Source: Leeuwenhoekiella blandensis MED217 | Lineage (GTDB): Bacteria; Bacteroidota; Bacteroidia; Flavobacteriales; Flavobacteriaceae | Direction of reading: 5' to 3' | Length of the DNA stretch: 64,000 nt | Assembly: GCF_000152985.1 (NCBI RefSeq) | Contig: NZ_CH672395.1 | Span: 3,569,823-3,633,822 of the forward strand | Part shown: piece after piece, positions 9,193 through 33,755 of the stretch | Position numbering within the stretch: the first letter of the stretch is position 1 | Layout: every line of letters begins with the position of its first letter | Program-made: the position numbers and the translations under genes | The notes under the pieces: model-generated | Databases searched by the model: none | The model's input: the letters and a program-made list of their open reading frames with translations, nothing else | What the model was told of the DNA's origin: nothing

Positions 9193-9429
9193 TTAAGGCT
9201 TAAGATCCGGGTATTTTTCTTCAACACGTTTAAAAAAATCCGATAGTTTTATTTGACGCGCATCACAAATCTTTTTAAGTGTCTCTACGGGAATACGATA
9301 TTCCTTCTCGTCAAGAATTCTTCTTACAATTTTCTCATCAATGTCATGATTAAGTCCGAAATCTCGGTTTGATTTGGCGTCTTTAATCCATTCGGAAATG
9401 GCATTACTTATGAGAAAATTGATGTTCAT
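9193..9429 (-). CDS. Small XRE/Cro-like helix-turn-helix regulator
   Basis: ATG at 9429 gives 78 residues; the frame extends upstream to 9456 only through a TTG, so the ATG is preferred. Residues about 25-70 (LNHDIDEKIVRRILDEKEYRIPVETLKKICDARQIKLSDFF) read as a compact Cro/C1-type HTH: recognition helix, then a helix ending in the LSDFF motif common in XRE regulators. There is no sensing domain. It is divergent from the structured RNA, sigma and Cas12f-like genes, with a perfect palindrome between them. The simplest model is that it represses itself and gates the sigma/Cas12f locus. Partners and signal are unknown. Confidence 0.75.
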   Translation of the reverse strand: MNINFLISNAISEWIKDAKSNRDFGLNHDIDEKIVRRILDEKEYRIPVETLKKICDARQIKLSDFFKRVEEKYPDLKP

Positions 9430-9460
9430 ACATAACAAAGGAAAAATATCAATCAAAATT

Positions 9461-9484
9461 TAATGCGGAAGATTTTCCGCATTA
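9461..9484. promoter_or_regulatory. Perfect palindromic operator candidate
   Basis: Arms TAATGCGGAA and TTCCGCATTA, 10 bp each and perfectly complementary, are separated by 4 bp (GATT). The site lies 31 bp upstream of the HTH gene start and 13 bp before the first -7-like element facing the other way. It is well placed for one regulator to control both directions. Binding by the neighbouring HTH protein is inferred. Confidence 0.6.
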
Positions 9485-9497
9485 AATAAAAGAATAC

Positions 9498-9524
9498 TAT
9501 ATTTGACTCATAATTATATATTTG
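9498..9524 (+). promoter_or_regulatory. Tandem Bacteroidota -7 elements before the structured RNA
   Basis: Two exact TAnnTTTG elements (TATATTTG) occur at 9498-9505 and 9517-9524, immediately before the first hairpin of the structured region. The known Bacteroidota consensus is TTTG, about 19 bp, then TAnnTTTG. The -33 elements are poor here (a TTTT run at 9473-9476 for the first), so the -7 match is the main evidence. Confidence 0.5.
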
Positions 9525-10116
9525 CGAAACTTCTTAGCATAACATATTAGAAGCATTCGCTTTGAATCTCGAATCAAAAACTGGTAATTTTTAGCAACGA
9601 GAGGATAAGCAGGGATGCTCACGACCCGGGCGTGGGCTCTCGCTTATTGTTGCGCGGTATACCAGTACCTTGATTCAATAAGTTGAGACCTGCGCCTTTT
9701 TGTATTAGGCCCACTACTTCACGTTCAGAGCCTTTGTATTCTTCTTTATCAAGCTTCGCATCCTTTTCCCCCTACATCATATAGGCTATAGTGGCCGGTA
9801 ACTTGTATGAGTTGTAGTCAACTAACAGCAAAAGCACTACTACCTATGCACAAAGCTCGTGTTTACGGGTACACGTAATCATCCGCTAAGTCACCCGTGG
9901 GTTATGGGTTGCTTCCCTACGAAGTAACCTGTAGTTGGGTGGGAAACGCCACTGTAACAGCGGCCTGGGCTTATACCGGGTAGGTTTAAGCACACCGGTG
10001 AATTAGCCATAAAAAAGTGCCGCAGCCCCTAGGGTCTGCGAAAAAGAGAAGCTGTTAAGTTCAAAAACCTTCCCGGTTGTGATTGGAGTCCGGCGGGAAG
10101 GTTTGAGCTTAACTAA
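9524..10116 (+). ncRNA. Large structured untranslated RNA upstream of sigma/dCas12f
   Basis: About 590 bp without a good reading frame, visibly richer in G+C than its surroundings and dense in nested complementary stretches. An opening hairpin (GCGAA/TTCGC) spans 9524-9560. A rod is built from 9571-9577/9670-9676, 9581-9586/9660-9665, 9594-9598/9649-9653, 9604-9610/9642-9648 and 9617-9623/9631-9637. Further hairpins are CACCC/GGGTG at 9892-9896/9937-9941, GCC-CTGT/ACAG-GGC at 9948-9964, CGCAG/CTGCG at 10021-10040, and a long stem at 10054-10113 (GTTAAG.. ACCTTCCC with GGGAAGGT.. CTTAAC). It does not look like tmRNA, RNase P, SRP RNA or a group II intron. It ends about 50 bp before the sigma start, so it may be a separate RNA, a long leader, or both. 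Strand is inferred from the promoter elements. Confidence 0.6.
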
Positions 10117-10166
10117 AACGCCCTTAAAAAGAATAGAATGTAAACGAAATACAGAACACTTAGCTT

Positions 10167-10961
10167 ATGAAACGATTCCAACTTGATACTAACTACAATG
10201 CCTTCAAAAAAGGTTGTCCACACGCATTTGAAGCGATTTACACGCAGTATTACCATAGTGTCTACTGGATGGGCAGGAGCATACTTAAGGATGTCTATGC
10301 AGTTGAAAATATTCTTCAGGATACCTTTCTCATCTTATGGGAAAAAAGGGATCGCATACAATCCCCAGAACATCTAAATGCGTTCGTACACTTTGTCATG
10401 AAAAGCGAGTGCATTTACCAGTATAGCAAGCCCCGGAATGCGTTTCAACGCAACCTAAGCAGATTAGACTATTTAGAGAATTATCAGGATTATTTAGGCG
10501 GCTATGACGAGGATGAAGAAGCTGCACACCTACGAAGACAGGAAGCAGATCAGAAGGCTTTAGACCAGATTCAAAGGGTACTTCCCTTACTAAGCAGTGA
10601 AAGAAAGCTTCTTGTGGAACTGTGCTTAAAATACGGCTTTCAGTATAAAGCTATTGCTCAGGCAATGGGAACCAGCACTGCTAAAACCAGTATCGGAGTA
10701 AAAGGCGCTATTAAAGATATTAAGAATATCATTACTAATGGAAGTACACCGGAAGCTAAAACCACACCGATCCGGGCGTTAAAGGCTCAGGCTAATATGA
10801 CCCGCAAACAGAAAAAAGTCTTGCAGCTTCGTACAGAAAAGCAGTATTCCTTTGCAGCCATTTCCAAGGAGCTAAACCTTTCTATACAGGAAGTACATCA
10901 GCAATTTATGGCTGCCTATAAACTGTTACAGCATAAACAAAATCAACAACAATCCGCTTAG
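10167..10961 (+). CDS. ECF-like sigma factor with extra C-terminal HTH, partner of the Cas12f-like protein
   Basis: This 264-residue protein has a sigma-70 region 2 at about residues 17-85 (AFEAIYTQYYHSVYWMG, then ENILQDTFLILWEKRDRI). An acidic linker follows (GGYDEDEEAA), then region 4 at about 133-188 (LPLLSSERKLLVELCLKYG, then YKAIAQAMGTS). This is the extracytoplasmic-function layout without sigma-3. Unusually, residues about 210-255 form a second region-4-like helix-turn-helix (MTRKQKKVLQL, then FAAISKELNLSIQEV), making it longer than a typical ECF factor of about 190 residues. No anti-sigma gene is adjacent. The Cas12f-like gene begins 2 bp after the stop, implying co-translation. It probably recruits core RNA polymerase to sites chosen by the RNA-guided partner. 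Confidence 0.85.
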   Translation: MKRFQLDTNYNAFKKGCPHAFEAIYTQYYHSVYWMGRSILKDVYAVENILQDTFLILWEKRDRIQSPEHLNAFVHFVMKSECIYQYSKPRNAFQRNLSRLDYLENYQDYLGGYDEDEEAAHLRRQEADQKALDQIQRVLPLLSSERKLLVELCLKYGFQYKAIAQAMGTSTAKTSIGVKGAIKDIKNIITNGSTPEAKTTPIRALKAQANMTRKQKKVLQLRTEKQYSFAAISKELNLSIQEVHQQFMAAYKLLQHKQNQQQSA

Positions 10962-10963
10962 TC

Positions 10964-12061
10964 ATGGAAAAAGAAACGATAAAACTCACCCGAAAGATCC
11001 AGCTACAGGTGAATGCGCCTACCAAAGAGGAAAAGAAGGAGGTCTACGACACGCTCTACCGCTGGCAGAACAGAAGCTTTAGGGCAGCCAATCTCATTAT
11101 TTCACATCTGTACATACAGGAACGGGTCAAAGAATTCTTTTACTTATCAGAAGGAATACGCTATAAGTTAGCGGATGAAAAAAAAGCGGAAGACGGCATG
11201 CTCAATAGGTCAAAAATGAACTGTACCTACCGGGTGGTATCCGATCGTTTTAAAGGGGAAATCCCTACTAACATTTTAGCCAACCTGAACAATACCATAA
11301 TCAATAACTTTCGTAACAACCTGTCGGAATATAGTAAAGGAGAACGCGCGCTTGCCAATTTTAAAAGGAATATCGCGTTTCCTTTTGGGCCGGTAGCCAT
11401 TCATGGATTATCCTATAACGAAAACCAAAAAGCATTTTGTTTTCGTTTGTTTTCCATTCCCTTAAAAACCTATTTAGGGAAGGATCATACCGATAAACGA
11501 AAATTGCTGGAACAGTTAGTCGCCGGAAAAATCAAACTATGTACTTCTAGAATCCAACTGAAGAAGCAAAAAATTTATTGGTTAGCCACCTTTGAATTCG
11601 AAAAAGAAATACATAACCTGAAACCGGAAGTAATTGCTGAAGCTTCTTTATCCCTTGAATATCCTATCACTGTGAAATCCGGAAAAGCTACACTTCGTAT
11701 TGGCAACAGAGAGGAATTTCTATACAGAAGGCTAGCCCTGCAGGCTGCTCAAAAAAGAGCCCAAAGCGGAGCCACCTATTGCAGACCTGGAAAAGGCTTT
11801 AAACGCAAAACTAAAGCAGTAGAAAAATTTTACGAAATGGAAAAAAACTACGTAAGTAACCGCTTGCATGTGTACAGCCGAAAGCTCATTGATTTTTGTA
11901 TCAAACAACAAGCCGGCACCTTAATTCTGCTCAATCAGGAAGCTAAGATCGAGGCCGCACAGCAAGAACGTTTTGTGCTTAGAAACTGGAATTATTATGA
12001 ATTGACTAAGAAAATAGAATACAAAGCCAAAAAAGCAGGTATTGAATTACTTATCGATTGA
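10964..12061 (+). CDS. Nuclease-dead Cas12f/TnpB-like RNA-guided DNA-binding protein
   Basis: This 365-residue protein has the general layout of Cas12f/TnpB: an N-terminal beta/helical DNA- and RNA-binding part (IKLTRKIQL, residues 6-14; CTYRVVSDRF, 87-96) and a RuvC-like second half. The RuvC skeleton is recognisable: LSLEYPITV at 229-237 aligns with the DLGIKYP motif of active enzymes, then IGNREEFLYRR, GKGFKRK, LHVYSRKLIDFC and NWNYYELTKKIEYKAKKAGIELL. The catalytic residues are gone: Ser228 replaces the first Asp, Asn324 replaces the Glu (LILLNQ for IxLEN/D). The chain stops where the zinc ribbon and third Asp should follow. DNA binding without cutting is expected. No TnpA or IS200/605 ends are nearby. 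A tracr-like RNA follows the stop. Confidence 0.88.
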   Translation: MEKETIKLTRKIQLQVNAPTKEEKKEVYDTLYRWQNRSFRAANLIISHLYIQERVKEFFYLSEGIRYKLADEKKAEDGMLNRSKMNCTYRVVSDRFKGEIPTNILANLNNTIINNFRNNLSEYSKGERALANFKRNIAFPFGPVAIHGLSYNENQKAFCFRLFSIPLKTYLGKDHTDKRKLLEQLVAGKIKLCTSRIQLKKQKIYWLATFEFEKEIHNLKPEVIAEASLSLEYPITVKSGKATLRIGNREEFLYRRLALQAAQKRAQSGATYCRPGKGFKRKTKAVEKFYEMEKNYVSNRLHVYSRKLIDFCIKQQAGTLILLNQEAKIEAAQQERFVLRNWNYYELTKKIEYKAKKAGIELLID

Positions 12062-12175
12062 TACGAAAATAAATAATTGGCCCTTAGGGTCTGAGGGTGC
12101 TTGTACACCCGTAAGGTGAGGTATTTTAATAGCACTCACTAAATGCAGGCAGCATATACAACCCTTCCCTAAAAG
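12062..12175 (+). ncRNA. Candidate guide RNA scaffold for the Cas12f-like protein
   Basis: Directly after the stop codon is a short structured stretch. CCCTTAGGG lies at 12081-12089, a hairpin GGGTG/CACCC with loop CTTGTA at 12095-12110, CGTAAG, then a stem GTGAG/CTCAC at 12116-12120/12135-12139, followed by TAAATGCAGG. The order of elements (CCCTTAGGG, a G-C stem with a GCTTG-type loop, a GTGAG/CTCAC-type stem, then AATGCA) matches my memory of Cas12f tracrRNA/crRNA scaffolds. TnpB and TldR guide RNAs are likewise encoded at or after the 3' end of their genes. The guide would follow, probably starting around 12145-12152, but I cannot fix the boundary. A weak dyad (TTCCCT/AGGGAG, about 12165-12192) could end the transcript. 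Confidence 0.65.
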
Positions 12176-12298
12176 ATTAAATAAACAGGGAGTGTTATGA
12201 ACAGATAAATAACATAAAATGCAAAAACTTATACAACAGACGTGAGTGAACCATCCATTTAAAGAGTTAAATTATAAATATAGAACACACTTGTTCAT

Positions 12299-12625
12299 CT
12301 ACCTAAATTTCCGCTCAACAAACTTGGGTTGTTCTTCTTCCTGTTGATTAAAAAGTCGATCCAATAGTACCTTGGTCGGTTTGGTTTGTTCCGTTTCTAT
12401 TCTTCGTAATATAGCTTCTACCCCATCCATGCGTTTATTAATTAGTGTTTCCAAGCGCTGTTTAGAATCATCAAAGGGCTCAAACGGACTGATGGAATTC
12501 CGCTCAAAAAAGTCTAAAAGAGCCTCCAAGGTTTCGGTATAATTCGCATCATTTGCTAGGGCGTACTTTTTAAAGCGCTCCACGGTTTCGGTGTGAAAAT
12601 TTATTCGGGAAAATCGTTTAGGCAT
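12299..12625 (-). CDS. BfmA/BtgA-family mobilisation protein
   Basis: ATG at 12625 gives 108 residues beginning MPKRFSRINFHTETVERFKKYA. The frame extends to 12655, but the internal start matches the family better. The N-terminal 50 residues look like a ribbon-helix-helix or short HTH DNA-binding fold (TETVERFKKYALANDANYTETLEALLDFF). The C-terminal part is charged and probably coiled-coil (INKRMDGVEAILRRIETEQTKP). BfmA/BtgA proteins are accessory relaxosome or mobilisation proteins of Bacteroidota mobilisable elements. No relaxase is visible next to it, so it may be a remnant of a transferable element or act with a relaxase encoded elsewhere. Confidence 0.75.
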   Translation of the reverse strand: MPKRFSRINFHTETVERFKKYALANDANYTETLEALLDFFERNSISPFEPFDDSKQRLETLINKRMDGVEAILRRIETEQTKPTKVLLDRLFNQQEEEQPKFVERKFR

Positions 12626-13365: not shown

Positions 13366-13683
13366 GAAGCTTTTTGCGGAATGGAGGAAAATGGGGTTTA
13401 TTCCTCTTACCCAAATCATTTCTTTTGGTGATTTTTAGAGTTTCGCATTGGAGCCTGGAGGTGTATTTCAATACCCTCGGTTTTTCTAAATCGTTGTGAT
13501 TTACAGTTTTCTGTAAAAATGGGTAAAATCTTTTAAGTACTTTTAATTGATAATTACTAGCAAAGCTAGGAATACCTCTACGAAGAGGAATTTGATGCTG
13601 CTCTTTCGCAAAGTAGCACTTACCCTTTCAGTCATTTGGTCATAGCAAAACTTAGGGAAATTAGAGTTTTATTAAAAAAAGAA

Positions 13684-15528
13684 ATGAAAAAAATAGAATT
13701 CAATAAAACATCAAACATTTTCATAAACACAGGTATAATTGCCCTGTATCGTTATCTAGTTAAGTTTGAAAGAAAAAATCCTGCAGTAAATCTGAATTAT
13801 CAGCTTTATGATGACAAATTGATTATTGAGTCAGACGACATACTTCATCTATTAGAAGAAGCATATTATTTTATGGGGAAGGAAATTTATGACACTTCCT
13901 CTAAAAGGCAGTTAAGAGATGCTGATAAATATTATTTTGTGGAAAAGCCTTTTAAATACGGTAAATTCCCAAAAATGTCATCATTTGGCTTAGCTGGTTT
14001 TATTACGAAAGCACCATTTGGACCAGCTCCTACACCAAGAATCAAACCAGTGAAATTTTCAAATCTCTTTAACGAAAATCCTGAATTTGCTCACAATATC
14101 GCCAAAGTTTATTCTGAAAATAATTTGAAACTTAAAGGATTTGTTATAGAAAATGAGAAGATCAAACCCGATGAGAAACAAAGTAAAGGAGATTCTAATA
14201 TTTATTTAAATGAACCTTATACTAAAGCACCTAGGCTTGAATTTAAGAAAAAGTATTTTGAAAAAGGAGATAAATATTGCGTGGTTACTAAAGAATCTTT
14301 CAAAGATTTAGTATCAAGTAAAGGAAGTTTTGCTTTTACTTCAAGTGTCACAAGTTTTAATTCTTTTTTACAAACCGATGACAGTATAAAAATAAGTTTT
14401 AAAGCGAAATATCTTGCTCTTTTCTCTCCTTCTTTGGCTATGTATGCATATATTGACGGGTATGACTCATTCATATCCTCTTTTTTTAATACTAGTTCAT
14501 TAAAAAAATTACTTTCACTTTATCCTGAAGAGTTTTTCTATGAAAAGAGAGAAATGCAATCGTGGGCTTTTTCTTTTCAACAGAATATAAGAATACACAA
14601 TTTTGGTTATTCAAAGAAAGACGATGTCAAATTCTCAAATCCTTATAGTGATGCATACTCACCTCAAGAAATCGTATTCCTTATTCTCCTCACTTTCTAT
14701 AAAAAGAAATTTGCAGATGAACTTGCTTACAAGAATATTGAAGAAGTTGATTCAGATGAGCTTTTAGGTTTACTTGAAATTGACAAGAGCCCAATAAGTC
14801 TGGTAACTTTTAAAGCCGATAAATTTGCTTCAACCCTCAGACCAAATTTTTATGAAGAATATTCCAATGTGAAATTCATTATTCAGCTTATTCATAAACT
14901 GGAATCCAATAAGAAGAAACGAGTACCTATTGGAGAATTATGGCGGGGGTTAACTTTTAAAAATTCAAAGATAGAAGCTATTAATGATTTTAGTAAAAAA
15001 ATGAAGCTTCAAAGACAGATCAGGATCAAAGTAATAGATCACCTCCTGAGAGGGAAATCAATTTTGACCGTCATCGAATCTTTATTTCAAAAAAGCTATT
15101 TGCTGTTAGCAAATAATGATAATCCAGGTTCAAGAAGATATGACCTTGTCTTGGAATTTTTAAAAATATATGAACAATCAATCAATTTTGGAACTACAAT
15201 TATGGAAGAATCGCTACAACAGAGGGCTATTGGTCTAGGAAAAAGTATTGGCTACGCCATTATTAATTACGAGAATCCTAAAAATGATAATGAAAAAAAA
15301 GCCAATGCAAAAAATGGAAGAAAATACTTAATAGGCCTTCATAAGGCACGAACGATAGAACAGTTCAGGGAAACCTTAATTAGAATTCAGCGTAAATATC
15401 AGGTTTCTGTTGCCAATGAAATTTTAGAAAGTTTGAATGAAAAAAATTACGTGGCAATTAAACAGTACGCACAAATAGGTGCTTTAAATAGTTTGAATGT
15501 TGTTTTATCTAACCAAAAAGATTATTAA
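13684..15528 (+). CDS. cas8b: Cas8, large subunit of the type I-B Cascade complex
   Basis: ATG at 13684 gives 614 residues starting MKKIEFNKTSNIFINTGI, which matches the usual Cas8 opening in which a target-nucleotide-like protein begins with a short beta strand and FINxGI. The frame is open to 13636 only through a TTG. The protein is lysine-rich and otherwise divergent, as Cas8 proteins are; assignment rests on position (first cas gene before cas7 and cas5), size and the N-terminus. Cas8 recognises the PAM and stabilises the R-loop with Cas5 and Cas7. The next gene, cas7, starts 1 bp after its stop. Subtype naming (Cas8b against a Cas8a/Cst1 relative) is uncertain. Confidence 0.8.
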   Translation: MKKIEFNKTSNIFINTGIIALYRYLVKFERKNPAVNLNYQLYDDKLIIESDDILHLLEEAYYFMGKEIYDTSSKRQLRDADKYYFVEKPFKYGKFPKMSSFGLAGFITKAPFGPAPTPRIKPVKFSNLFNENPEFAHNIAKVYSENNLKLKGFVIENEKIKPDEKQSKGDSNIYLNEPYTKAPRLEFKKKYFEKGDKYCVVTKESFKDLVSSKGSFAFTSSVTSFNSFLQTDDSIKISFKAKYLALFSPSLAMYAYIDGYDSFISSFFNTSSLKKLLSLYPEEFFYEKREMQSWAFSFQQNIRIHNFGYSKKDDVKFSNPYSDAYSPQEIVFLILLTFYKKKFADELAYKNIEEVDSDELLGLLEIDKSPISLVTFKADKFASTLRPNFYEEYSNVKFIIQLIHKLESNKKKRVPIGELWRGLTFKNSKIEAINDFSKKMKLQRQIRIKVIDHLLRGKSILTVIESLFQKSYLLLANNDNPGSRRYDLVLEFLKIYEQSINFGTTIMEESLQQRAIGLGKSIGYAIINYENPKNDNEKKANAKNGRKYLIGLHKARTIEQFRETLIRIQRKYQVSVANEILESLNEKNYVAIKQYAQIGALNSLNVVLSNQKDY

Positions 15529-15529
15529 A

Positions 15530-16453
15530 ATGAAAGTTAACAGTATTACCCTTACGTATTTATCAAAAGTATCTTTTGCCAGCCTGAATGGTGGCGATAA
15601 AGAAGTAGATAATATTAACCCTATAAAAAAAGTAACCTTACAAAATGGAGAAGAACTTCCTTATGTCTCATCACAGGCAATTCGTCGGGCGCTGCGCGAC
15701 AAGCTGGAAGAGTTGGGTAGTGAAATTTCACCGGTGGGAACGTCTAGTACAGATAAAGGGGCGCCTAAAACCGAAATGAATCCAATTAAATATATTGACG
15801 ATGATTTATTTGGATATATGGATGCATCCAAAGGGAAGGATGGTGCAGCAGGTACATCTACTGTTAGGACATCTCCCATACGTGTAGAATCTTTATTGGC
15901 ATTAGCCACTTATAAGGGAGATTTAGACTATGCCACCAATTTTATGGGTAAGAAGATAGAGCTTAATGCCAATATTTTTGAGACCGAAATCCATTCTGGA
16001 GTTTATCGAGGAACCATCCTTATTGAACTGGATCGAATAGGTAAAGAAACTAAATTAAAAGATGAGAAAACCCGTGAACTGGAAACAGTAGATTTAGTCG
16101 ATAACAAAGAAAAAGCAGCTAGGGTTATTAGTTTTCTAAATGCACTACAAATGCTATGGAGTCAGGGTAGACAAACCCGTTTTTTAGCTGATATATCTCC
16201 TAAGTTTATAGCAGCAGGCTTAATGAAATCAAAAAATCCAATTTTCTTAGAAGCTGTTGAGCTTACCGAGGAAGGAAACGTAAACATTGATAAGTTGAAA
16301 ACTGTTTTATCTGACTACGGGAAGTTTATGGAAGATCACGTGTTCGCCGTTCAAGAAGCTGTTTTTAAAAAAGAAGAGGGAATGTCTAGTTTAAAAGAGG
16401 GGTTCGACAAGCTTGAAAATTGGGTAAATACTTACTATGAAGTTAATTCATAA
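15530..16453 (+). CDS. cas7: Cas7, Cascade backbone subunit (Cst2/DevR family)
   Basis: ATG at 15530 gives 307 residues (MKVNSITLTYLSKVSFASLNGGDK). The frame extends upstream to 15497 inside cas8, but the internal ATG fits the family. It is a RAMP protein with the Cas7/Cst2/DevR hallmarks: an N-terminal ferredoxin strand, PYVSSQAIRRALRDKL at about residues 44-60, and a glycine-rich thumb-like segment. Several copies coat the crRNA spacer in the type I-B complex. It lies between cas8 and cas5, 1 bp and 3 bp from each, so the three are translationally coupled. Confidence 0.92.
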   Translation: MKVNSITLTYLSKVSFASLNGGDKEVDNINPIKKVTLQNGEELPYVSSQAIRRALRDKLEELGSEISPVGTSSTDKGAPKTEMNPIKYIDDDLFGYMDASKGKDGAAGTSTVRTSPIRVESLLALATYKGDLDYATNFMGKKIELNANIFETEIHSGVYRGTILIELDRIGKETKLKDEKTRELETVDLVDNKEKAARVISFLNALQMLWSQGRQTRFLADISPKFIAAGLMKSKNPIFLEAVELTEEGNVNIDKLKTVLSDYGKFMEDHVFAVQEAVFKKEEGMSSLKEGFDKLENWVNTYYEVNS

Positions 16454-16456
16454 AAG

Positions 16457-17188
16457 ATGAAAAATTTTATCATCGAAATACAATGTCAAACAGCCTCCTT
16501 TAGAAATCCTGATTTTCAAAACTTTCATAAGTCTTTAGAATTACCTCCTCCTACGACAGTAATTGGGATAGCTGGAGCAGCTTTAGGATACAGTCCATTA
16601 AGAGCGCAAGAGTTTTTTGATGAGTCAAAATTTGAAATTGGAATCTATGGTACTTATTTGGGAAAATGTAAAGACACATGGAAATATAACAAAGGTATTC
16701 GTGATATGCGATTATATGACCCTGGATTGGATGGAAGCATTATTCAAAGAGAATTTTTAATCTTTCCGACCTTCATTATTGCTTTTTCATCTGAAAATAT
16801 AAAAGCCGTTGAAAAACTTTATAAAGCTTTCACATCTCCAGTTTATGCGTTAACAATGGGCAATAGTGATTCTTTGGCTTCTATTAAAAATATTGAAATC
16901 AACCTAGAAATCTCTGAAGCAGATAAAATTGAAAATTGCTTCGTTCAAGGAGATGTAGTTAATGAAGTGATGAGCCTTGCAAATAGTGGAAACTTTGAAT
17001 TCTCCATTTATACAAATGACACATTAACTTATGATTTACCTATTCGGTTTGAGTATGAAAACGACTATGGAAGACGAACTGTTTCCAAAATCGACACCTA
17101 TTCTCTAATTGGTGATCTAATGAAAATCAATTATAATATAAAAGGTCTGCAATATAAAAACCACTTTATTCCCTTGTTCTCAATATGA
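16457..17188 (+). CDS. cas5: Cas5, crRNA 5'-handle-binding Cascade subunit
   Basis: This 243-residue RAMP protein has the Cas5 N-terminal signature: a ferredoxin strand followed by ASFRNPDFQNFHKSLELPPPTTVIGIAGAALG. The PPPTTVxGIxGAALG stretch is the typical Cas5 fingerprint. It caps the crRNA 5' handle in Cascade and contacts Cas8. It begins 3 bp after cas7 and overlaps the cas3 start by 4 bp (17185-17188). Length and sequence resemble the Cas5t/Cas5b group. No frameshift or other damage is visible. Confidence 0.92.
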   Translation: MKNFIIEIQCQTASFRNPDFQNFHKSLELPPPTTVIGIAGAALGYSPLRAQEFFDESKFEIGIYGTYLGKCKDTWKYNKGIRDMRLYDPGLDGSIIQREFLIFPTFIIAFSSENIKAVEKLYKAFTSPVYALTMGNSDSLASIKNIEINLEISEADKIENCFVQGDVVNEVMSLANSGNFEFSIYTNDTLTYDLPIRFEYENDYGRRTVSKIDTYSLIGDLMKINYNIKGLQYKNHFIPLFSI

Positions 17189-18424
17189 ACGGACTCGAAG
17201 AAATATGGGCAAAATCTGAACCTGTTGAGACATTAACGCAGCATACTAAAAAGGTTCTTGAAATTTGGTTTGAATTGAAAGAGCGATATTCCGATGAGAT
17301 AGAGAACGAGCAATTTTGGAATACATCTTTCAACGCCGTCGCTTATCACGATTTTGGTAAAATCTGCAATCTTTTTCAAGAAACTATAAAGAAGGAAAAA
17401 ATTGTAGAATTTGATTCACGTGTTCGGCATGAATTTTTTTCAGGTATGTTTTTATATTTAGATAATATCAAATTCTATGAACAACATCCTGAAAGTTTAA
17501 TTGCCGTTTTTTCTCATCACAAAGCATTTAATGATGAAGGTTTTGTTCAACAGATTTCAGAAAATAGAAATAAAGAGACAAAACTTGATGAGAATGTCAT
17601 AAATAATTTCATTCATTTTGCAAATCAAATTGCAGAAAACTATAATTTTTCTAAAATAGAAATTGACACTTCTAGTAAAAATCTAATTAATTTAGAATAT
17701 GGAAAATTGGTTTTATTCTTTAGGAAAAAGATATATGAAGAATTGAGTAAATTAAATTTCTTAACTCCAAAAAGCAGAAAGAATTATATTTATCACAAAG
17801 CAATTCTTAATATTTCCGATTGGACAGCTTCTGGCCATCTTTCCCTAGAAAAAGGAATCGCTTACGACACAGATTTTTTAGCTCAAAAGATCATTACAAA
17901 AATTAGAAAAGACGGCAAAAATGAAATAGCCAATAAGTTTCAGTTCAAAACTTTTCAACAGGAAAGTTTAACAGAAAAAAATGTAATTGCTATTGCACCT
18001 ACCGGAAGCGGCAAAACAGAAGCAGCGTTGATCTGGGCTTCTTCAAAAAAGGATTGGGAGCGTATAATATATTTATTACCCACACGCGTAACCTCCAATG
18101 CAATTTACAGCAGATTAACCGATTATTTTGGAGAGGAATACACTCAACTAATCCATTCTTCGGCACGCCAATACATCAAAGAACAATTTGATAATTCTTA
18201 TGACCAAAAGAAATATTTTAGAGATAAGTCTTTCTTTAAGAATATAAATATCTGCACAATTGATCAATTGTTGACTCTCGGTTTTAATTTGGGTTTTTGG
18301 GAAGTAAAAACCTTTCACCTTCTCAATGCCCGAATAATCATTGATGAAATACACTTATATAGCCCGTATACATTAGGTTTAATTATCTCGACAATAATCT
18401 ATTTGAAAGAGAATTTTAATACGC
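17185..18424 (+). pseudogene. cas3: cas3, 5' part (HD nuclease and first helicase domain), interrupted by an IS element
   Basis: The first 413 codons plus one base of cas3, up to the insertion point at 18424/18425. An HD nuclease domain occupies about residues 1-230, with His20, the VAYHDFGK motif (His55, Asp56) and SHHK at 110-113. The first helicase domain has Walker A APTGSGKT at 271-278 and a DEAD-box-like IIDEIH at 385-390. Reading on, the frame enters the IS and stops at 18441. Cas3 is the nuclease-helicase that degrades DNA after Cascade binding, so interruption should abolish interference while leaving crRNA production and target binding. A product ending shortly after residue 413 might be made but would lack the second helicase domain. 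Confidence 0.93.
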
Positions 18425-18492
18425 TGGAATTACTACATTAGACTGGACATAGAGTTGAATGAATATTATTGCAAGTTGTTAACTTAGCAATC

Positions 18493-18807
18493 ATGAGACG
18501 TAAAGCCAAACATTACACTTTAGAGTTTAAGCAAAAAGCAGTAGAATTAAGTTACGCCAAAGGCAGTGTAGCACAGGTTTGTGAGGACCTGGATATCTTA
18601 CCTGCTGTTCTTTACCGGTGGCGTAAAGAGCAAAAGAATTATGGTAAAAATAGTTTTCCCGGCCGTGGTAACCCTAAAATGACCGATCAACAAAAAGAGA
18701 TAGCCCGTTTAAAGAAACAGCTCAAAGAAGCCGAATTAGAACGTGATATCTTAAAAAAGGCGATTGGCATCTTCTCCGCGAGCGACAAGAAAAATACAGG
18801 TTCATAA
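18493..18807 (+). CDS. IS3-family transposase OrfA (HTH domain)
   Basis: ATG at 18493 gives 104 residues (MRRKAKHYTLEFKQKAVELSYA). An HTH_Tnp_1 fold at about residues 8-45 recognises the IS ends (GSVAQVCEDLDILPAVLYRWRKE), and a leucine-zipper-like helix follows (QQKEIARLKKQLKEAELERDILKKA). The reading frame meets A6G at 18753-18759, the usual IS3 -1 frameshift site. Slippage there would join OrfA to OrfB to make the OrfAB transposase; OrfA alone commonly acts as a regulator. The frame continues to a stop at 18805-18807. Confidence 0.93.
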   Translation: MRRKAKHYTLEFKQKAVELSYAKGSVAQVCEDLDILPAVLYRWRKEQKNYGKNSFPGRGNPKMTDQQKEIARLKKQLKEAELERDILKKAIGIFSASDKKNTGS

Positions 18808-18818
18808 AACAGCATCGT

Positions 18819-19673
18819 ATGAAATTTCCTGTTGAGAAGATGTGCACTATGTTAGCCGTGAGTAAAAGCGGTTATTACCACTGGTTGAAATCTGGTCCTA
18901 GCACCCTTTGGAAAGAAAATCAGAAGCTCTCTTCATTAATCAAAGATATATTTGAAGATAGTCACCAAAGCTATGGAGCTCCTAGAATAAAGGCTGAATT
19001 GAAAGCTTTGGGCTTTAAGGTATCAAAGCCTCGGGTAGCCCGTATAATGAAGGCAAACTATTTATACGCTAAGAGGAAGCGTAAGTTTAAAGCCACCACC
19101 GATAGTAACCATAAATATCCCATAGCACCAAACTTGTTGAACCAATGCTTTAATGTAGCCAGGGCTAATCAAGTATGGGTAAGCGATATTACCTATGTTC
19201 AGACCAATCAGGGTTGGAGTTACCTAACAGTGATCATTGATCTATTCAATAGAAAAGTTATAGGATGGGCTTTAAGTGATACCCTAAATACTGAGGATAC
19301 TGTTATAAAAGCTTGGCAGATGGCTATTAAAAATACCACACTAACACAACCTTTGATATTCCATTCAGACCAAGGTATCCAATATGCCAGCCAAAGATTT
19401 ACTAATCTACTTAAAAGCTATAATGACCTGGTAAAACAATCGATGAGTAGAAAAGGTAATTGCTGGGACAATGCCGTAGCTGAATCCTTTTTTAAATCTC
19501 TGAAAGTAGAATGGGTATATTGGCATAAATACAAGCTTAAATCACAGGCAGAGTTATCTATCTTTCAGTGGATAGAAACCTGGTACAATACCAGAAGAAG
19601 ACATTCCTACTTAGGAAACAGAACTATTAAAGAATTTGAAATAGATATGTATAATCAAAAACTAGCAGCATAG
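18819..19673 (+). CDS. IS3-family transposase OrfB (DDE integrase core)
   Basis: 284 residues from the listed ATG, but the functional product is probably the OrfAB fusion made by -1 slippage: the frame upstream of the ATG reads KYRFIKQHR, which continues the OrfA chain. An HTH_21 segment (SYGAPRIKAELKALGFKVSKPRVARIMK) precedes the rve catalytic core. The core has the DDE triad in WVSDITYV, FHSDQGIQYAS and NAVAESFFKSLK. The C-terminus YNTRRRHSYLGNRT is typical of the family. It catalyses transposition by a circular intermediate in known relatives. No stop or deletion is visible. Confidence 0.95.
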   Translation: MKFPVEKMCTMLAVSKSGYYHWLKSGPSTLWKENQKLSSLIKDIFEDSHQSYGAPRIKAELKALGFKVSKPRVARIMKANYLYAKRKRKFKATTDSNHKYPIAPNLLNQCFNVARANQVWVSDITYVQTNQGWSYLTVIIDLFNRKVIGWALSDTLNTEDTVIKAWQMAIKNTTLTQPLIFHSDQGIQYASQRFTNLLKSYNDLVKQSMSRKGNCWDNAVAESFFKSLKVEWVYWHKYKLKSQAELSIFQWIETWYNTRRRHSYLGNRTIKEFEIDMYNQKLAA

Positions 19674-19714
19674 TCACTCAACTTAAAGTCCAGTTTTTTG
19701 TTGCAAGTCCACGC

Positions 19715-20709
19715 GCTTTTATATTATGACAGCGACGATGCCATTGAAATTGCAGCTTTTATTGGAAAAATCTTTAGGAAATGTTTCACTCATACAAGAC
19801 ACGGAACTTTTAAATGAAGCTAGAAACAGATTTGAAAGTCGAGATAATTTAATTGAAAAATCTCTTGAAGAAATTACGTTTAAAATAGAAGAAGGAAAAA
19901 AAGTTTTGATTGTCGTCAATACAGTTGATAGAGCAATAGAACTTTACGAAAAGTTAAAAGATCTTGCAGAAGATTCAGGTGTTGATGCAATCTGCTATCA
20001 TTCGCGTTTTATTAAAAAAGATCGGTTTCTAAAAGAGAAAGAAATTTTTGCCTTAGACAATAAGAATGAAGGAGGTGTTTTGATTGCAACACAAGTCGTA
20101 GAAGTTTCTTTAGATATTGATTTTGATATTCTCTATACGGAAAATGCGCCAATTGATGCGATTATTCAAAGAGCCGGAAGGGTTAACCGTAAGCGTCAAA
20201 AAGAAAATTCTAAGGTTATTCTTTTTCAACACTACGAAATAAGTGAGAAAATTTATGATGTAAAAGGAGTCTTAGAAAATACGTTCAGGCATTTCAAGGA
20301 ATTAAATGGGCGAAGACTGACTGAAAAAAAATTAAATGAATTGGTAGATGTGGTTTATAAAGACTTGGATATTGAATCTAATGATAAATATTTAGAAGGC
20401 CTCAACAAACATTCAGATATTCAATATAAATACAACTTCATCAAAGATTTAACCACAGATGAAAAGGTGTTCACACGAGAAGGTCTAGATACGATTTCAG
20501 TCATACCAGATCGATTTTACCCTGAACTTTACAATAGCAAAGACCGAGATAAGCTTAGTAATCACGAATTATCAATTAGTAAAAAAAGAGCTAACTCTGT
20601 AAAAATTATTTCTGGTCCATTAGGCTTTAAGTTTATCGATGCAAATTATGATGATAAAAAAGGATTAAATTTTAAAGAAAAAAACGAAAATAAAAGCCTG
20701 CTCTATTAA
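19715..20709 (+). pseudogene. cas3: cas3, 3' part (second helicase domain)
   Basis: This continues cas3 after the IS. Joined to the 5' part it gives codon 414 (CGC, Arg) and then FYIMTATMP, so motif III is restored, and the total is 744 residues, a normal Cas3 length. The second RecA-like domain shows IATQVVEVSLDIDFD (motif V) and QRAGRVNRKRQ (motif VI). An internal ATG at 19726 could start a separate fragment, but it would lack the nuclease and Walker A. The remaining C-terminal part is lysine-rich. It ends 30 bp before cas6. Confidence 0.93.
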
Positions 20710-20739
20710 GATCAGCCCATCCACTAAAACTAGGAGAAA

Positions 20740-21423
20740 ATGACCGAAACCACCACCCAAAAGTTGCAGATCTGCCGTATCAAATTCCCCGAAATCCAAT
20801 TACAAACCCGTGATGCTCATAAACTACGCGGGTATTTTGGCAATTTATTTAAGCAACACTCCCCTATCCTTCACAACCATTACGAAGATGGCAAGTTTCG
20901 ATACAAATACCCAAGTATTCAGTACAAAATAATCAATAAAGTCCCCACCTTAATCGGCATCAAGGATGGCGCTGCTTTATTACCCCAACTCTTTCTTAAA
21001 ATTAAAGAATTGGATATTTCAGGGCAATCCTATCCCATCAGCAGTAAAAATATTGAGTTGCGTAATGAAAGGACGGGCTACAGTGATCAGTTGCACCAAT
21101 ATAAATTTGGAACACTTTGGATGGCTTTAAACCAAAAGAACTATCCTAAATATCAAAATCTAAAGACAGAAGCCGAAAAAGAAGCGATGCTCAACGCAAT
21201 CTTAGTAGGCCATATACTCAGCTTTTTTCGAAATACTGGGATTGAACTAAGTGCCAATGAACGCCTGATGGCTAAAGTTCAAGTTCAGGAAAAAAGTACC
21301 ATGTTTAAAGAAAACCGTATGATTGCCTTTTCCGGCAGTTTTGTGGTCAACGCACTCTTGCCTGCTGAAATTGGTCTTGGCAAGTCTGTAAGCCGTGGCT
21401 TTGGCACCCTAATACCCACCTAA
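20740..21423 (+). CDS. cas6: Cas6, pre-crRNA processing endoribonuclease
   Basis: 227 residues. The C-terminal glycine-rich loop GLGKSVSRGFGTLIPT is the Cas6 fingerprint, and the chain otherwise reads as tandem ferredoxin-like folds. Cas6 cuts the repeat to leave an 8-nt 5' handle, which for this array would be ATTGAAAC. The catalytic histidine cannot be placed with confidence. The gene lies after the interrupted cas3; if it relies on the same operon promoter, the IS could reduce its expression. It overlaps the cas1 start by 1 bp (TAATG). Confidence 0.92.
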   Translation: MTETTTQKLQICRIKFPEIQLQTRDAHKLRGYFGNLFKQHSPILHNHYEDGKFRYKYPSIQYKIINKVPTLIGIKDGAALLPQLFLKIKELDISGQSYPISSKNIELRNERTGYSDQLHQYKFGTLWMALNQKNYPKYQNLKTEAEKEAMLNAILVGHILSFFRNTGIELSANERLMAKVQVQEKSTMFKENRMIAFSGSFVVNALLPAEIGLGKSVSRGFGTLIPT

Positions 21424-22421
21424 TGCAAATTTTCATCAATACATATGGTACCTACCTCCACGTTAAAGACGATATGTTTGAGATCAAAGTGCGTGAGGAT
21501 AAAAAGCAACCTTTTAATGTAAATCATATTGCTGCTCACAAAGTAACCTCCTTTATTGTTTCAAAAGGTGCCGCACTCACTACAGACGCTATTGCCCTTG
21601 CCTTAAAGCATAATATTGATATTGTTTTGGTAGAAAACAATGGGCACCCTATGGGACGCTTTTGGCACAGTAAGTTGGGCAGTACCACAAAAATCAGAAA
21701 ACAGCAACTGGTTGCTTCGTTAAACCAGACCGGTGTTTACTGGATTAAGGAGTGGCTATCCCAAAAACTGGAAAATCAGGCCGATTATTTAAACGACCTT
21801 AAAAAGCACCGTAAAAACCTTCACGTCTATCTGGATGAGAAATCAGCGGCGATACTCGGTTTTAGGAAAAAAATCAAGGAAGCCGACGGAGCTGATATCA
21901 ATCAGTTGGCTGAAAGTTTCAGGGGTTGGGAAGGTTCGGCAGGAAGACATTATTTTGAAGCCCTTGCCACCTGTATTCCCGATGCTTATTCCTTTAAAGG
22001 CCGAAGTTTCCGCCCAGCTCAGGACGAATTTAATGCATTGCTCAATTATGCTTACGGTATTTTATACAGCCGGGTGGAGCGGGCTTTAATGCTGGCCGGA
22101 CTGGATCCGTTTGTTGGTTTTATGCATCGGGACGATTATAATTCCAAAAGCTTGGTTTATGATTTTATTGAACCCTACCGTATTTATGCAGAGCGGTTCG
22201 TGTTTAAATCCTTTTCTTCCAAAAAGATGAACAAATCCTATTTTGAGGTATTTGAAGGAGGTGTAAGCCTCAATCCGGATGGAAAAGCATTTTTCGTTCC
22301 GGAATATCTTGAATATCTGGATAGCGATAAAATTAAATATAAAGGCCGGTTACAGACCCGTCTGAATGCCACGCAGCTGGAAGCGCATCGATTTGCTAAT
22401 ACTTTAATAGAAAAATTATGA
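21423..22421 (+). CDS. cas1: Cas1, spacer-integration endonuclease
   Basis: 332 residues, the usual type I-B Cas1 size. The N-terminal beta domain ends near residue 80, and the helical catalytic domain carries the metal ligands: a Glu in FRGWEGSAGRHYFEAL, a His in PFVGFMHRDDYNSKSLVYD and an Asp in VYDFIEPYR. With Cas2 it integrates new spacers at the leader end. Start and stop overlap cas6 and cas2 by 1 and 4 bp, implying coupled translation. It appears intact, so adaptation could continue despite the cas3 insertion. Confidence 0.97.
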   Translation: MQIFINTYGTYLHVKDDMFEIKVREDKKQPFNVNHIAAHKVTSFIVSKGAALTTDAIALALKHNIDIVLVENNGHPMGRFWHSKLGSTTKIRKQQLVASLNQTGVYWIKEWLSQKLENQADYLNDLKKHRKNLHVYLDEKSAAILGFRKKIKEADGADINQLAESFRGWEGSAGRHYFEALATCIPDAYSFKGRSFRPAQDEFNALLNYAYGILYSRVERALMLAGLDPFVGFMHRDDYNSKSLVYDFIEPYRIYAERFVFKSFSSKKMNKSYFEVFEGGVSLNPDGKAFFVPEYLEYLDSDKIKYKGRLQTRLNATQLEAHRFANTLIEKL

Positions 22422-22708
22422 TCACTTGGGTACTTTATGATATTAAGAATAACGCTGCACGCAGTCAGGTCTCCAAAGCCTGTAAACATGCCGGCCTATA
22501 TAGAGTACAATATTCTTGTTTTTTAGGAACTTTAAATGCCAATGAAAAAGACAGTCTCGAGTTACAAATTGAAAAAGTAATCAACGAAGAGACCGATAAG
22601 GTTTACTTGTTTCGGATGAACAAAGAACAACTAAAGGATTGCAGTATGCTGGGGCAGGCTTTTGATGAAAAGCTTGTAACAGATGAAGTAAAAGCTTTGT
22701 TTTTTTAA
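22418..22708 (+). CDS. cas2: Cas2, structural subunit of the Cas1-Cas2 integrase
   Basis: 96 residues with the Cas2 ferredoxin fold opening: MITWVLYDIKNNAARSQVSKACK, where the aspartate follows the first strand, then GLYRVQYSCFLG. It bridges two Cas1 dimers and sets the spacer length, consistent with the 35-38 nt spacers seen. The gene overlaps cas1 by 4 bp and cas4 by 1 bp. Confidence 0.96.
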   Translation: MITWVLYDIKNNAARSQVSKACKHAGLYRVQYSCFLGTLNANEKDSLELQIEKVINEETDKVYLFRMNKEQLKDCSMLGQAFDEKLVTDEVKALFF

Positions 22709-23283
22709 TGACCAGTTTTTATCCATCTCAGGTTATAGAATATTTGTATTGTCCGCGATACACCTACTTTGAATATGTACTGCGTATTCCTCAAAATGAA
22801 GAGAAATACCACAAAGTGCAACGCGGTCGTGAAGTGCATGATGAGAAGTTAGAGCAAAACAAGAACTATTTACGTAAAAAAATAGGGGTACAGCAAAAAT
22901 GGATTGACCATTATATGGGGAGTCCTCAACTTAGAGGTAAGGTTGATGAAGTCTTGTCGTTAGAAGATGGTAGTTACGCCCCTCTGGATTATAAGTTTGC
23001 GGTTTGGAAAGACAGGGTATTTGAGACCTATAAACAACAGCTTTACTGTTATGCCTTATTGATTGAAGAAACTTTTGGAGCCAATGTCAATAAAGGCTTT
23101 TTGGTTTACACACGTAGCAAACATAAATTGGTAGAAATACCTATTAACCAAACTTCAAAAAATGAAGTGATGGAAAGCACGGAGAAAATGCTTGAAATCA
23201 TTGAAAGGAATAAATTCCCTAAAGCGACGACATATAAAAAAAGATGTTTAAATTGTACCTACAGAAATATCTGCATAAAGTAG
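22708..23283 (+). CDS. cas4: Cas4, PAM-selecting exonuclease of adaptation
   Basis: 191 residues. An N-terminal YLYCPRYTYF supplies one Fe-S cysteine, and the C-terminal cluster CLNCTYRNIC supplies three, giving the usual four-cysteine site. RecB nuclease motifs GKVDEVLSLEDGSYAPLDYK and the QLYCYALL helix lie between. Cas4 trims prespacers and sets PAM orientation. Its place last, after cas1-cas2, differs from the common cas4-cas1-cas2 order. It ends 194 bp before the first CRISPR repeat. Confidence 0.95.
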   Translation: MTSFYPSQVIEYLYCPRYTYFEYVLRIPQNEEKYHKVQRGREVHDEKLEQNKNYLRKKIGVQQKWIDHYMGSPQLRGKVDEVLSLEDGSYAPLDYKFAVWKDRVFETYKQQLYCYALLIEETFGANVNKGFLVYTRSKHKLVEIPINQTSKNEVMESTEKMLEIIERNKFPKATTYKKRCLNCTYRNICIK

Positions 23284-32700: not shown

Positions 32701-32774
32701 TGACCCCGGAGGGATTCAAACCCCCAACCCTCAGAGCCGAAATCTGATGCGCTATTCAGTTGCGCCACGGGGCC
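32701..32774 (-). tRNA. tRNA-Arg (anticodon TCG)
   Basis: 74 nt. The acceptor stem GGCCCCG (32774-32768) pairs with CGGGGTC near 32702-32708, with one G-U pair. The D arm is GCGCAACTGAATAGCGC. The anticodon stem TCAGA/TCTGA encloses the loop TTTCGGC, giving anticodon TCG for Arg. The T arm GGGGGTTTGAATCCCTC is standard. CCA is not encoded. It is the only complete copy; three 5'-half copies lie upstream. Confidence 0.95.
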
Positions 32775-32776
32775 AG

Positions 32777-33013
32777 TTACACTATTCTTCTTAAAAATTC
32801 ACGCCCAACTCCAGATTTCAAATATTTCTCATATTCTCTTGCTTCTAATCTGGAAGTAAAGCCCTTACTATAAACCAATTTCCACGGGAGAAATCCTTTT
32901 GTTGATCTATTTTCTCCTCGGTTATGCTGTATTAGTCTTTCTTCTACATCTTCAGCCATGCCTTTATAGAGCCGACCATCTTTTAAACTTTGTAAAACAT
33001 AGACAAAATACAT
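32777..33013 (-). CDS. GIY-YIG nuclease-domain protein, copy 1
   Basis: 78 residues forming a stand-alone GIY-YIG domain: strand YVLQSL, then DGRLYKGM (the YVL-x9-YKG variant of GIY-YIG), the conserved Arg in EERLIQHNRGEN, then PWKLVYSKGFTSRLEAREYEKYLKSG with the catalytic-type Glu. Small proteins of this type are common in Flavobacteria and often annotated as UvrC-like. Its stop lies only 2 bp from the tRNA-Arg 5' end. It is the nearest of three copies at exactly 327 bp spacing and differs from copy 2 at one residue (MAED against MSED). Confidence 0.88.
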   Translation of the reverse strand: MYFVYVLQSLKDGRLYKGMAEDVEERLIQHNRGENRSTKGFLPWKLVYSKGFTSRLEAREYEKYLKSGVGREFLRRIV

Positions 33014-33039
33014 CCTTACAATATTTCAATCTTAACCCC

Positions 33040-33101
33040 AGAGCCGAAACCTGCCTGCCGGCAGGCAGGTCTGATGCGCTATTCAGTTGCGCCACGGGGC
33101 C
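33040..33101 (-). pseudogene. tRNA-Arg 5' half with palindrome in the anticodon loop, copy 1
   Basis: 33070-33101 repeats tRNA nucleotides 1-32 and 33040-33049 repeats nucleotides 33-42. Between them, at 33050-33069, sits the 20 bp perfect palindrome CCTGCCTGCCGGCAGGCAGG. The rest of the tRNA is absent or unrecognisable. It lies directly upstream of GIY-YIG copy 1. Confidence 0.9.
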
Positions 33102-33103
33102 AG

Positions 33104-33340
33104 TTACACTATTCTTCTTAAAAATTCACGCCCAACTCCAGATTTCAAATATTTCTCATATTCTCTTGCTTCTAATCTGGAAGTAAAGCCCTTACTATAA
33201 ACCAATTTCCACGGGAGAAATCCTTTTGTTGATCTATTTTCTCCTCGGTTATGCTGTATTAGTCTTTCTTCTACATCTTCAGACATGCCTTTATAGAGCC
33301 GACCATCTTTTAAACTTTGTAAAACATAGACAAAATACAT
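33104..33340 (-). CDS. GIY-YIG nuclease-domain protein, copy 2
   Basis: 78 residues, identical to copy 1 except Ser for Ala in KGMSED. The reading frame and all motif residues (YVL..YKG, Arg, Glu) are intact. It lies 327 bp upstream of copy 1 in the same orientation, between tRNA 5'-half copies. Near identity of coding and non-coding parts indicates recent tandem amplification or homogenisation of the whole unit. Confidence 0.88.
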   Translation of the reverse strand: MYFVYVLQSLKDGRLYKGMSEDVEERLIQHNRGENRSTKGFLPWKLVYSKGFTSRLEAREYEKYLKSGVGREFLRRIV

Positions 33341-33366
33341 CCTTACAATATTTCAATCTCAACCCC

Positions 33367-33428
33367 AAAGCCGAAACCTGCCTGCCGGCAGGCAGGTCTG
33401 ATGCGCTATTCAGTTGCGCCACGGGGCC
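33367..33428 (-). pseudogene. tRNA-Arg 5' half with palindrome in the anticodon loop, copy 2
   Basis: Same layout as copy 1: nucleotides 1-32 at 33397-33428, the 20 bp palindrome at 33377-33396, nucleotides 33-42 at 33367-33376 with one substitution (AAAG for AGAG on the plus strand). Confidence 0.9.
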
Positions 33429-33430
33429 AG

Positions 33431-33667
33431 TTACACTATTCTTCTTAAAAATTCACGCCCAACTCCAGATTTCAAATATTTCTCATATTCTCTTGCTTCT
33501 AATCTGGAAGTAAAGCCCTTACTATAAACCAATTTCCACGGGAGAAATCCTTTTGTTTATCTATTTTCTCCTCGGTTATGCTGTATTAGTCTTTCTTCTA
33601 CATCTTCGGACATGCCTTTATAGAGCCGACCATCTTTTAAACTTTGTAAAACATAGACAAAATACAT
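33431..33667 (-). pseudogene. GIY-YIG nuclease-domain gene, copy 3, nonsense mutation
   Basis: Same 237 bp unit as copies 1 and 2, but codon 37 is TAA instead of TCA (33557-33559), so only a 36-residue fragment with the first motifs would be made. The catalytic-type Glu would be lost. A few other substitutions are present. It is the copy furthest from the intact tRNA and, if units were added next to the tRNA, the oldest. Confidence 0.88.
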
Positions 33668-33693
33668 CCTTCCAATATTTCAATCTCAACCCC

Positions 33694-33755
33694 AGAGCCG
33701 AAACCTGCCTGCCGGCAGGCAGGTCTGATGCGCTATTCAGTTGCGCCACGGAGCC
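33694..33755 (-). pseudogene. tRNA-Arg 5' half with palindrome in the anticodon loop, copy 3
   Basis: Nucleotides 1-32 at 33724-33755, the 20 bp palindrome at 33704-33723, nucleotides 33-42 at 33694-33703. The acceptor end has one change (GAGCC for GGGCC on the plus strand). As the outermost copy it probably carries the original 5' half and promoter of the ancestral tRNA gene. Confidence 0.88.

Follow-up and report, generated by a model that had tools for sequence, protein, structure and literature searches.

In this study, we analysed a 64,000-nt stretch of the Leeuwenhoekiella blandensis MED217 genome (hereafter the window; C1:3569823-3633822 of a single-contig genome of 4.24 Mb), in which a gene for an extracytoplasmic function (ECF)-type sigma factor is followed by a gene for a nuclease-dead Cas12f (dCas12f). 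The order at the locus is a helix-turn-helix (HTH) gene on the minus strand, a palindrome, a leader, the sigma gene, the dCas12f gene, a guide RNA (gRNA) scaffold and a guide (Table 1), and the sigma and dCas12f open reading frames (ORFs) are 2 bp apart. By eye, no TnpA-like ORF adjoining the locus was seen in the ORF list, and no repeat array was seen within the locus. In all these respects the layout agrees with an earlier note made from the letters alone, which had described a dead Cas12f gene 2 bp from an ECF-like sigma gene, a tracr-like RNA after it, a large structured RNA upstream and a divergent small HTH regulator with a palindromic operator, without TnpA or a CRISPR array of its own.

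Table 1. Features of the sigma-dCas12f locus, with positions in the window
Feature	Position	Strand	Basis
HTH (Cro/CI-type) regulator gene, divergent	9193..9429	-	Pfam HTH_26 above cut-off
Palindromic operator between HTH gene and leader	9458..9487	.	28/30 positions symmetric; self-inverted match
Leader-1, structured attenuator element (putative)	9520..9726	+	Model R1, 218.3 bits; covariation in 54 homologues; no Rfam match
Predicted leader-1 switching strand (terminator 5' strand)	9629..9647	+	Class B guides match sense
Leader-1 terminator 3' strand and T-run	9678..9701	+	
Second leader segment	9880..10119	+	Common to leader of SusC gene C1:3167298-3170201; three pieces, 78-81% identity
Module-2 hairpin (CCTTCCC...GGGAAGG)	10068..10101	+	Counterpart of pre-SusC hairpin
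ECF-type sigma factor, 264 amino acids (aa)	10167..10961	+	Pfam, TIGR02937; 241.4 bits to 9n9q_C RpoE
Nuclease-dead Cas12f, 365 aa	10964..12061	+	549.9 bits to PDB 9n9c; EASLS motif
gRNA scaffold, 3' end TATACAAC	12089..12162	+	Model R2, 88.7 bits; 21-scaffold alignment
Guide CCTTCCCTAAAAGATTAAAT	12163..12182	+	Length inferred from tandem copies in relatives, by eye
Possible second gRNA 3'-end remnant (TATACAAC + AGACGTGAGTG...)	12220..12252	+	By eye; model R2 misses it; weak

Both proteins match those of solved structures. The sigma protein is above the cut-off for Pfam Sigma70_r2, r4_2 and r4 and for TIGR02937, and it aligns over residues 8-262 with chain C ('RpoE') of PDB entry 9n9q, which contains both nuclease-deactivated Cas12f and RpoE; the latter has 261 aa, so the sigma factor is hardly the unusually long one that had been supposed. 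The dCas12f protein scores below the curated thresholds of both Pfam and NCBIfam (NF040570, guided_TnpB, comes closest with E 1.3e-14) and matches the 'Nuclease-deactivated Cas12f' of 9n9c, also 365 aa, over residues 1-364 in one ungapped alignment. When aligned pairwise with the active-type Cas12f 9nzo, the RuvC motif GVDLG reads EASLS in the window protein, and EASLS is identical across 12 of 12 aligned homologues. The C-terminal part is missing as well, because the match to 9nzo ends at residue 414 of 506. Judged from these alignments, the Cas12f of the window is RuvC-dead. Furthermore, a sigma ORF lies directly 5' of the dCas12f homologue in all 14 related loci (L011-L024; the fifteenth locus of the homologue list, L025, is a fragment and was left out of the count), an adjacency that exceeds chance. 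In one of these, from Chryseobacterium soldanellicola (L024, 6001-7094), the dCas12f frame is broken into two ORFs. The closest relatives by protein are named Leeuwenhoekiella genomes, with 98, 97 and 91% identity.

The leader upstream of the sigma gene contains a structured element, which we call leader-1. The window copy has a minimum free energy of -47.9 kcal/mol (z -2.92; equalled by 3 of 200 shuffles) and, folded alone, takes the terminator form. Across 54 leaders, pairing in the terminator helix reaches 95.5%, with 19 both-side changes against 3.8 in shuffled controls, and a set of antiterminator-type helices is 93.8% paired with 155 against 52.4, the outermost reaching 99.4% with both-side changes at 6 of 6 pairs. 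Sliding the partners by 1-3 columns lowers pairing to 38-54% and 30-44%, respectively. Columns 90-97 and 111-115 are common to both helix sets, and column 96 covaries with column 74 and with column 167. At least five T residues occur within 9 nt past the terminator 3' strand in 54 of 54 leaders, a count that no control accompanies. The first RNAalifold structure combined the terminator helix with another 5' fold; the nested antiterminator helices come from a manual drawing that was tested afterwards, and two inner ones, where the alignment is variable, pair poorly (53% and 74%). From this covariation, the leader-1 core is best described as an attenuator with two mutually exclusive folds, and its 5' terminator strand as the switching strand. 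The starts of the two terminator strands are 54-64 nt apart (median 55).

A covariance model built on 11 leaders found 33 copies of leader-1 in 12 genomes (E <= 0.01). Sigma-dCas12f genes follow 18 of these (in L132, a sigma fragment only), SusC genes 12 (11 identified by tblastn and L112 from reading the protein start) and other genes 3 (L146-L148). In a survey of 249 genomes of the family (leader-1 at E <= 1e-6, dCas12f match at E <= 1e-40), leader-1 was present in 44 and dCas12f in nine, all of them among the 44. The large upstream RNA, which the earlier note had taken as possibly setting this locus apart, was found at 11 of the first 16 loci and also in 35 of the 249 genomes in which no dCas12f match reached E 1e-40. 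Because of these 35 genomes, leader-1 is clearly not dedicated to dCas12f and has another function. Among 19 stretches without dCas12f, from 17 genomes, leader-1 leads into SusC in 10, into an ORF of about 111-122 aa in four and into other genes in five, all of the last being weak hits. The four with the short ORF (L192, L193, L199 and L200) come from two genomes, and in L192 the ORF is followed by an ECF-sigma-like fragment. A small divergent ORF lies 5' of the leader in all 14 strong cases without dCas12f (by eye), and Pfam places the four divergent proteins tested as HTH, one above cut-off. Diverged leader-1-like elements (L146, L147, L148 and L202-L206) precede genes other than SusC and sigma-dCas12f, and leader-1-like elements may form a wider RNA class. 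An Rfam covariance-model search with the leader and the gRNA matched zero families.

The gRNA scaffold is conserved as well. An alignment of 21 scaffolds has three covarying stems, with both-side changes at 7 of 17 pairs, and model R2 detected scaffolds in each of the 19 genomes searched. Six are in the window genome, one at the window locus and five beside a paralogous sigma-dCas12f locus (C1:1329405-1331661). The scaffold ends in CAAC before the guide, presumably as in Cas12f CRISPR RNA. The window guide starts at 12163, 18 nt after the position of about 12145 given in the earlier note. In several relatives, the guides are followed by what looks like the end part of the dCas12f gene (by eye), so gRNA arrays seem to grow through tandem duplication. 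We read 65 guides from the window genome and its relatives. Of these, 36 begin with GGCGTG, GCGTG or GCGCG, 17 contain a word of CCTTCCC type, four are of the TTAG type and eight are other; we refer to GCGTGGG... guides as class B and to CCTTCCC... guides, including the window's own, as class A. A further class is formed by the L135 guide TTAAGTCAATTAGCC and the L015 guide TTAATTCGATTAGCC, which resemble a stretch, GAATTAGCC, present in the leaders of sigma and SusC genes; a segment of this type lies in the region 9994-10003 of the window, and the guide match in L138 is 9 nt long. One gRNA (L256, G155:C18) was found in a fetched stretch without dCas12f, and the first 12 bases of its guide GGTGGGAAACGCTTGC equal window leader positions 9938-9949; in the leaders of its own genome that were examined, only 6 bases match.

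The guides repeatedly match leaders of the genome in which they reside. Matching was scored as the longest stretch common to a guide and its own-genome leaders and compared with shuffled guides in 200 rounds; this score replaced a uniform 16-nt score, which had ranked noise with targets. The 65 guides were reduced to 51 distinct ones by dropping a mis-parsed one (L097), ten from the genomes of L014, L015 and L017, whose leaders were not fetched, and three duplicates. Matches of at least 9 bases were found for 22 guides in sense and six in antisense (shuffled mean 2.2, maximum 7), and they nearly always start at guide base 1. In genome G011, GGCGTGTCATCCNACTT (16 specified bases) has exact matches only in its gRNA and in the leader-1 of one SusC gene (L138), a copy that deviates from the consensus GGCGTGGGCTC, and the next-best genomic match has 3 mismatches. 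In genome G105, the 16-nt guide GCGTGGGCTCTCTTAT has eight places within 2 mismatches, namely two gRNAs and six leader-1 elements, which precede sigma-dCas12f genes (three), SusC-SusD (one), a set of ECF sigma, FecR-like (by eye) and SusC genes (one) and a HEPN-domain gene (one). In G111, a class A guide shares 15 nt with the leader of a SusC gene.

These matches extend beyond the terminator arms, with 16 nt sense against 6 nt antisense in G105 and 12 against 7 for the L134 guide, and such long contiguous sense matches favour pairing with DNA over pairing with leader RNA. Alternatively, the gRNA could act on the leader transcript, where pairing with the opposite attenuator strand would prevent termination or antitermination, while the sigma factor activates elsewhere. 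We consider this unlikely. In its favour, class B guides fall on the very strand used in the pairing of either alternative fold, class A guides show complementarity to the 3' arm of the hairpin that they match, and antisense matches are long in some guides (12, 11 and 10 nt). Against it, the best class B guides have contiguous complementarity of 6-7 nt to leader RNA against 12-16 nt to DNA; in G011, the matched bases TCATCC lack complementarity to the downstream strand of the leader concerned (by eye); and the homologue of known structure is a complex of dCas12f with RpoE.

In five SusC leaders compared from Leeuwenhoekiella and Salegentibacter, the hairpin matched by class A guides lies 76-85 bp from the SusC start codon (by eye), and a hairpin near the module-2 position is also present in most folded SusC leaders without dCas12f. 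The window genome has 30 SusC genes above the family cut-off, among 58 matches in total, and CCTTCCC occurs within 700 bp upstream of only one of them, C1:3167298-3170201. The first 8 bases of the window guide match 78 bp before this gene, preceded by a G. Since the leader of this gene is related to window positions 9880-10119, the match is not independent of homology, and support for an own-genome target, at 8 bases before one of 30 SusC genes, appears thin. The window leader itself reads A|CCTTCCCG, with 7 bases matching the window guide, and a gRNA of the paralogous locus has a 9-nt sense match at window position 9630, within the predicted switching strand. Guide matches in leaders upstream of SusC/SusD operons, which the earlier note had predicted, are present in related genomes (strong ones in G011 and G105) and, in the window genome, as the short 8-base match.

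From the gene order, the dead RuvC motif, the scaffold, the leader folds and the guide-leader matches, all found by computation, we infer that the locus is a dCas12f-sigma RNA-guided transcription system aimed at the leaders of SusC-SusD operons and of its own operon, which would bypass attenuation and autoregulate; we give this reading a probability of roughly 0.7. The scaffold RNA would load dCas12f and the guide would select a DNA site in the conserved leaders of SusC-SusD and sigma-dCas12f operons, class B guides at the 5' (switching) strand of the leader-1 terminator and class A guides at the 5' arm of the hairpin before SusC. The partner sigma factor would then recruit RNA polymerase, with transcription starting downstream of the R-loop on the guide-sense strand. 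A transcript begun there would escape attenuation because it lacks the terminator 5' strand, so that the operon would be expressed, and the system's own operon would be amplified because its leader carries the site. The divergent HTH protein and its operator may control the ordinary upstream promoter. Reportedly, transcription by dCas12f-sigmaE starts about 46 nt from the target-adjacent motif (TAM), which is said to be minimally a 5' G (2025 preprints). Since the terminator strands start 54-64 nt apart, a start at this distance would fall between them, which suggests initiation between the two strands. More tentatively, leader-1 could represent a new attenuator class of Flavobacteriaceae SusC-type operons that dCas12f-sigma would have evolved to open from the DNA side, with its R-loop on the switching strand, and in which restarting of transcription between the terminator strands by dCas12f-sigma would amount to antitermination with a positive self-loop; we regard this extension as possible rather than probable. 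If the proposed system is real, it would supply natural targets and a regulatory logic for RNA-guided transcription (leaders of nutrient-uptake operons and its own leader). The analysis also brings to light an RNA element, unmatched in Rfam and present in the 44 family genomes, whose trigger can now be searched for. The sharp prediction of the model is transcription start sites between the terminator strands.

A different outcome, repression, would follow if dCas12f R-loops in the leaders blocked elongation, with the sigma factor merely titrating or autoregulating. The sites do lie within transcribed leaders, downstream of the likely promoter, and the 11-nt guide site in L133 is positioned around -45 relative to SusC, which would leave too little room for a normal 5' untranslated region if transcription started some 46 nt downstream. 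Repression would also have a precedent in the TldR repressors, which are exapted TnpB homologues (PMC13418256). However, the adjacent sigma gene is kept in 14 of 14 loci and a dCas12f-RpoE complex has been solved, and we give repression little credence.

Several observations weigh against RNA-guided activation at leaders. Besides the 35 genomes with leader-1 and no dCas12f match, 29 of the 51 guides match by fewer than 9 nt, the guide of G173 departs at base 2 from the sigma leader of its own system, and the guides and leaders of relatives share ancestry and are not independent samples. In class A guides, the spacing that follows CCTTCCC is off from that in the targets by roughly one base. Among 48 leaders, GGCGTG is preceded by G in 28, by A in 14 and by C in six, and a G TAM fits all 48 only if the R-loop start is shifted by one base; G at the shifted position in 48 of 48 is a product of how the search was constructed (3 of 51 leaders failed its pattern) and was not used as evidence. 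In the window genome, the 20-nt guide matches only itself within 3 mismatches, with no SusC target, the paralog guide GGCGTGTTC has zero other matches within 3 mismatches, and the GGCGTGAGTT guides of the paralog have four 3-mismatch matches, none in SusC leaders. A guide lacking any genomic match upstream of a gene, which the earlier note had named as evidence against its proposal, is therefore what the full-length window guide presents, in contrast to its first 8 bases. Likewise, T-rich guides of Chryseobacterium type have no excess of 3-mismatch hits: a degenerate guide pattern, searched in seven such genomes, gave no more than its reversed control and was rejected as a candidate. The same search exposed leader copies 5' of SusC. 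In another reading, the identity between guides and leaders is a by-product: recombination would have copied the guides from leaders or scaffolds, most would no longer function, and leader-1 would work alone. The short matches, the frequency of leader-1 without dCas12f and the multiplication of gRNA units together with the dCas12f 3' end in tandem duplications (by eye) are in line with this. We hold it to be very unlikely, as the agreement of the G011 guide with a deviant leader of the same genome and the restriction of the G105 guide to leader elements point to maintained matching, and nearly all matches begin at guide base 1.

The surroundings of the locus contain other systems. Type I-B CRISPR-Cas genes lie downstream (13636-23283; Cas7/Cst2, Cas5 and Cas1 by NCBIfam), with a Cas3-like frame interrupted by an IS3-type transposase-like ORF (18819-19673, by eye). 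Beside them, from about 23456 onward, is a large CRISPR array with a direct-repeat family of 102 copies, whose repeat is unrelated to the sigma-dCas12f locus. After the locus, 12302-12625 on the minus strand encodes a BfmA/BtgA-type mobilization protein N-terminal domain (NF041200, above cut-off), which hints at a mobile neighbourhood. At 32743-33696, a 300-nt sequence occurs as three near-identical direct repeats at a spacing of 327 nt, the first adjoining a tRNA gene.

The kind of system described here appears to be already known, and the leader and the guide-leader relation appear to be new. PDB entries 9n9c, 9n9m, 9n9o and 9n9q presumably represent the dCas12f-sigmaE RNA-guided transcription of the 2025 preprints, and the kinship to such systems that the earlier note had proposed is borne out, as the window proteins are of the same kind as those solved in 9n9c and 9n9q. 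The two systems are alike in dCas12f length, sigma length, gene adjacency, dead RuvC and a neighbouring gRNA; what is described here in addition is a conserved attenuator leader common to the operon and its putative targets. Our literature search found no paper on dCas12f-sigma and only loosely related items on SusC attenuators, from which we do not claim absence from print. CRISPR-Cas12f (type V-F) has, by sequence, the same protein fold, but the present locus is without an array or cas genes of its own and its catalytic motif is lost. TldR proteins are exapted, nuclease-dead TnpB-like repressors with a guide RNA acting on transcription, and in this sense are also exapted dead proteins of TnpB/Cas12f type (PMC13418256; PMC12803034 likewise concerns TldR and TnpB). 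Unlike the sigma-bearing loci studied here, the TldR repressor is described without a sigma partner in the available part of PMC13418256. Finally, leader-1 resembles attenuators and riboswitches in that its two covarying folds exclude each other and a T-run follows, and differs from them in that it has no Rfam match and that the guide RNA equals its switching strand.

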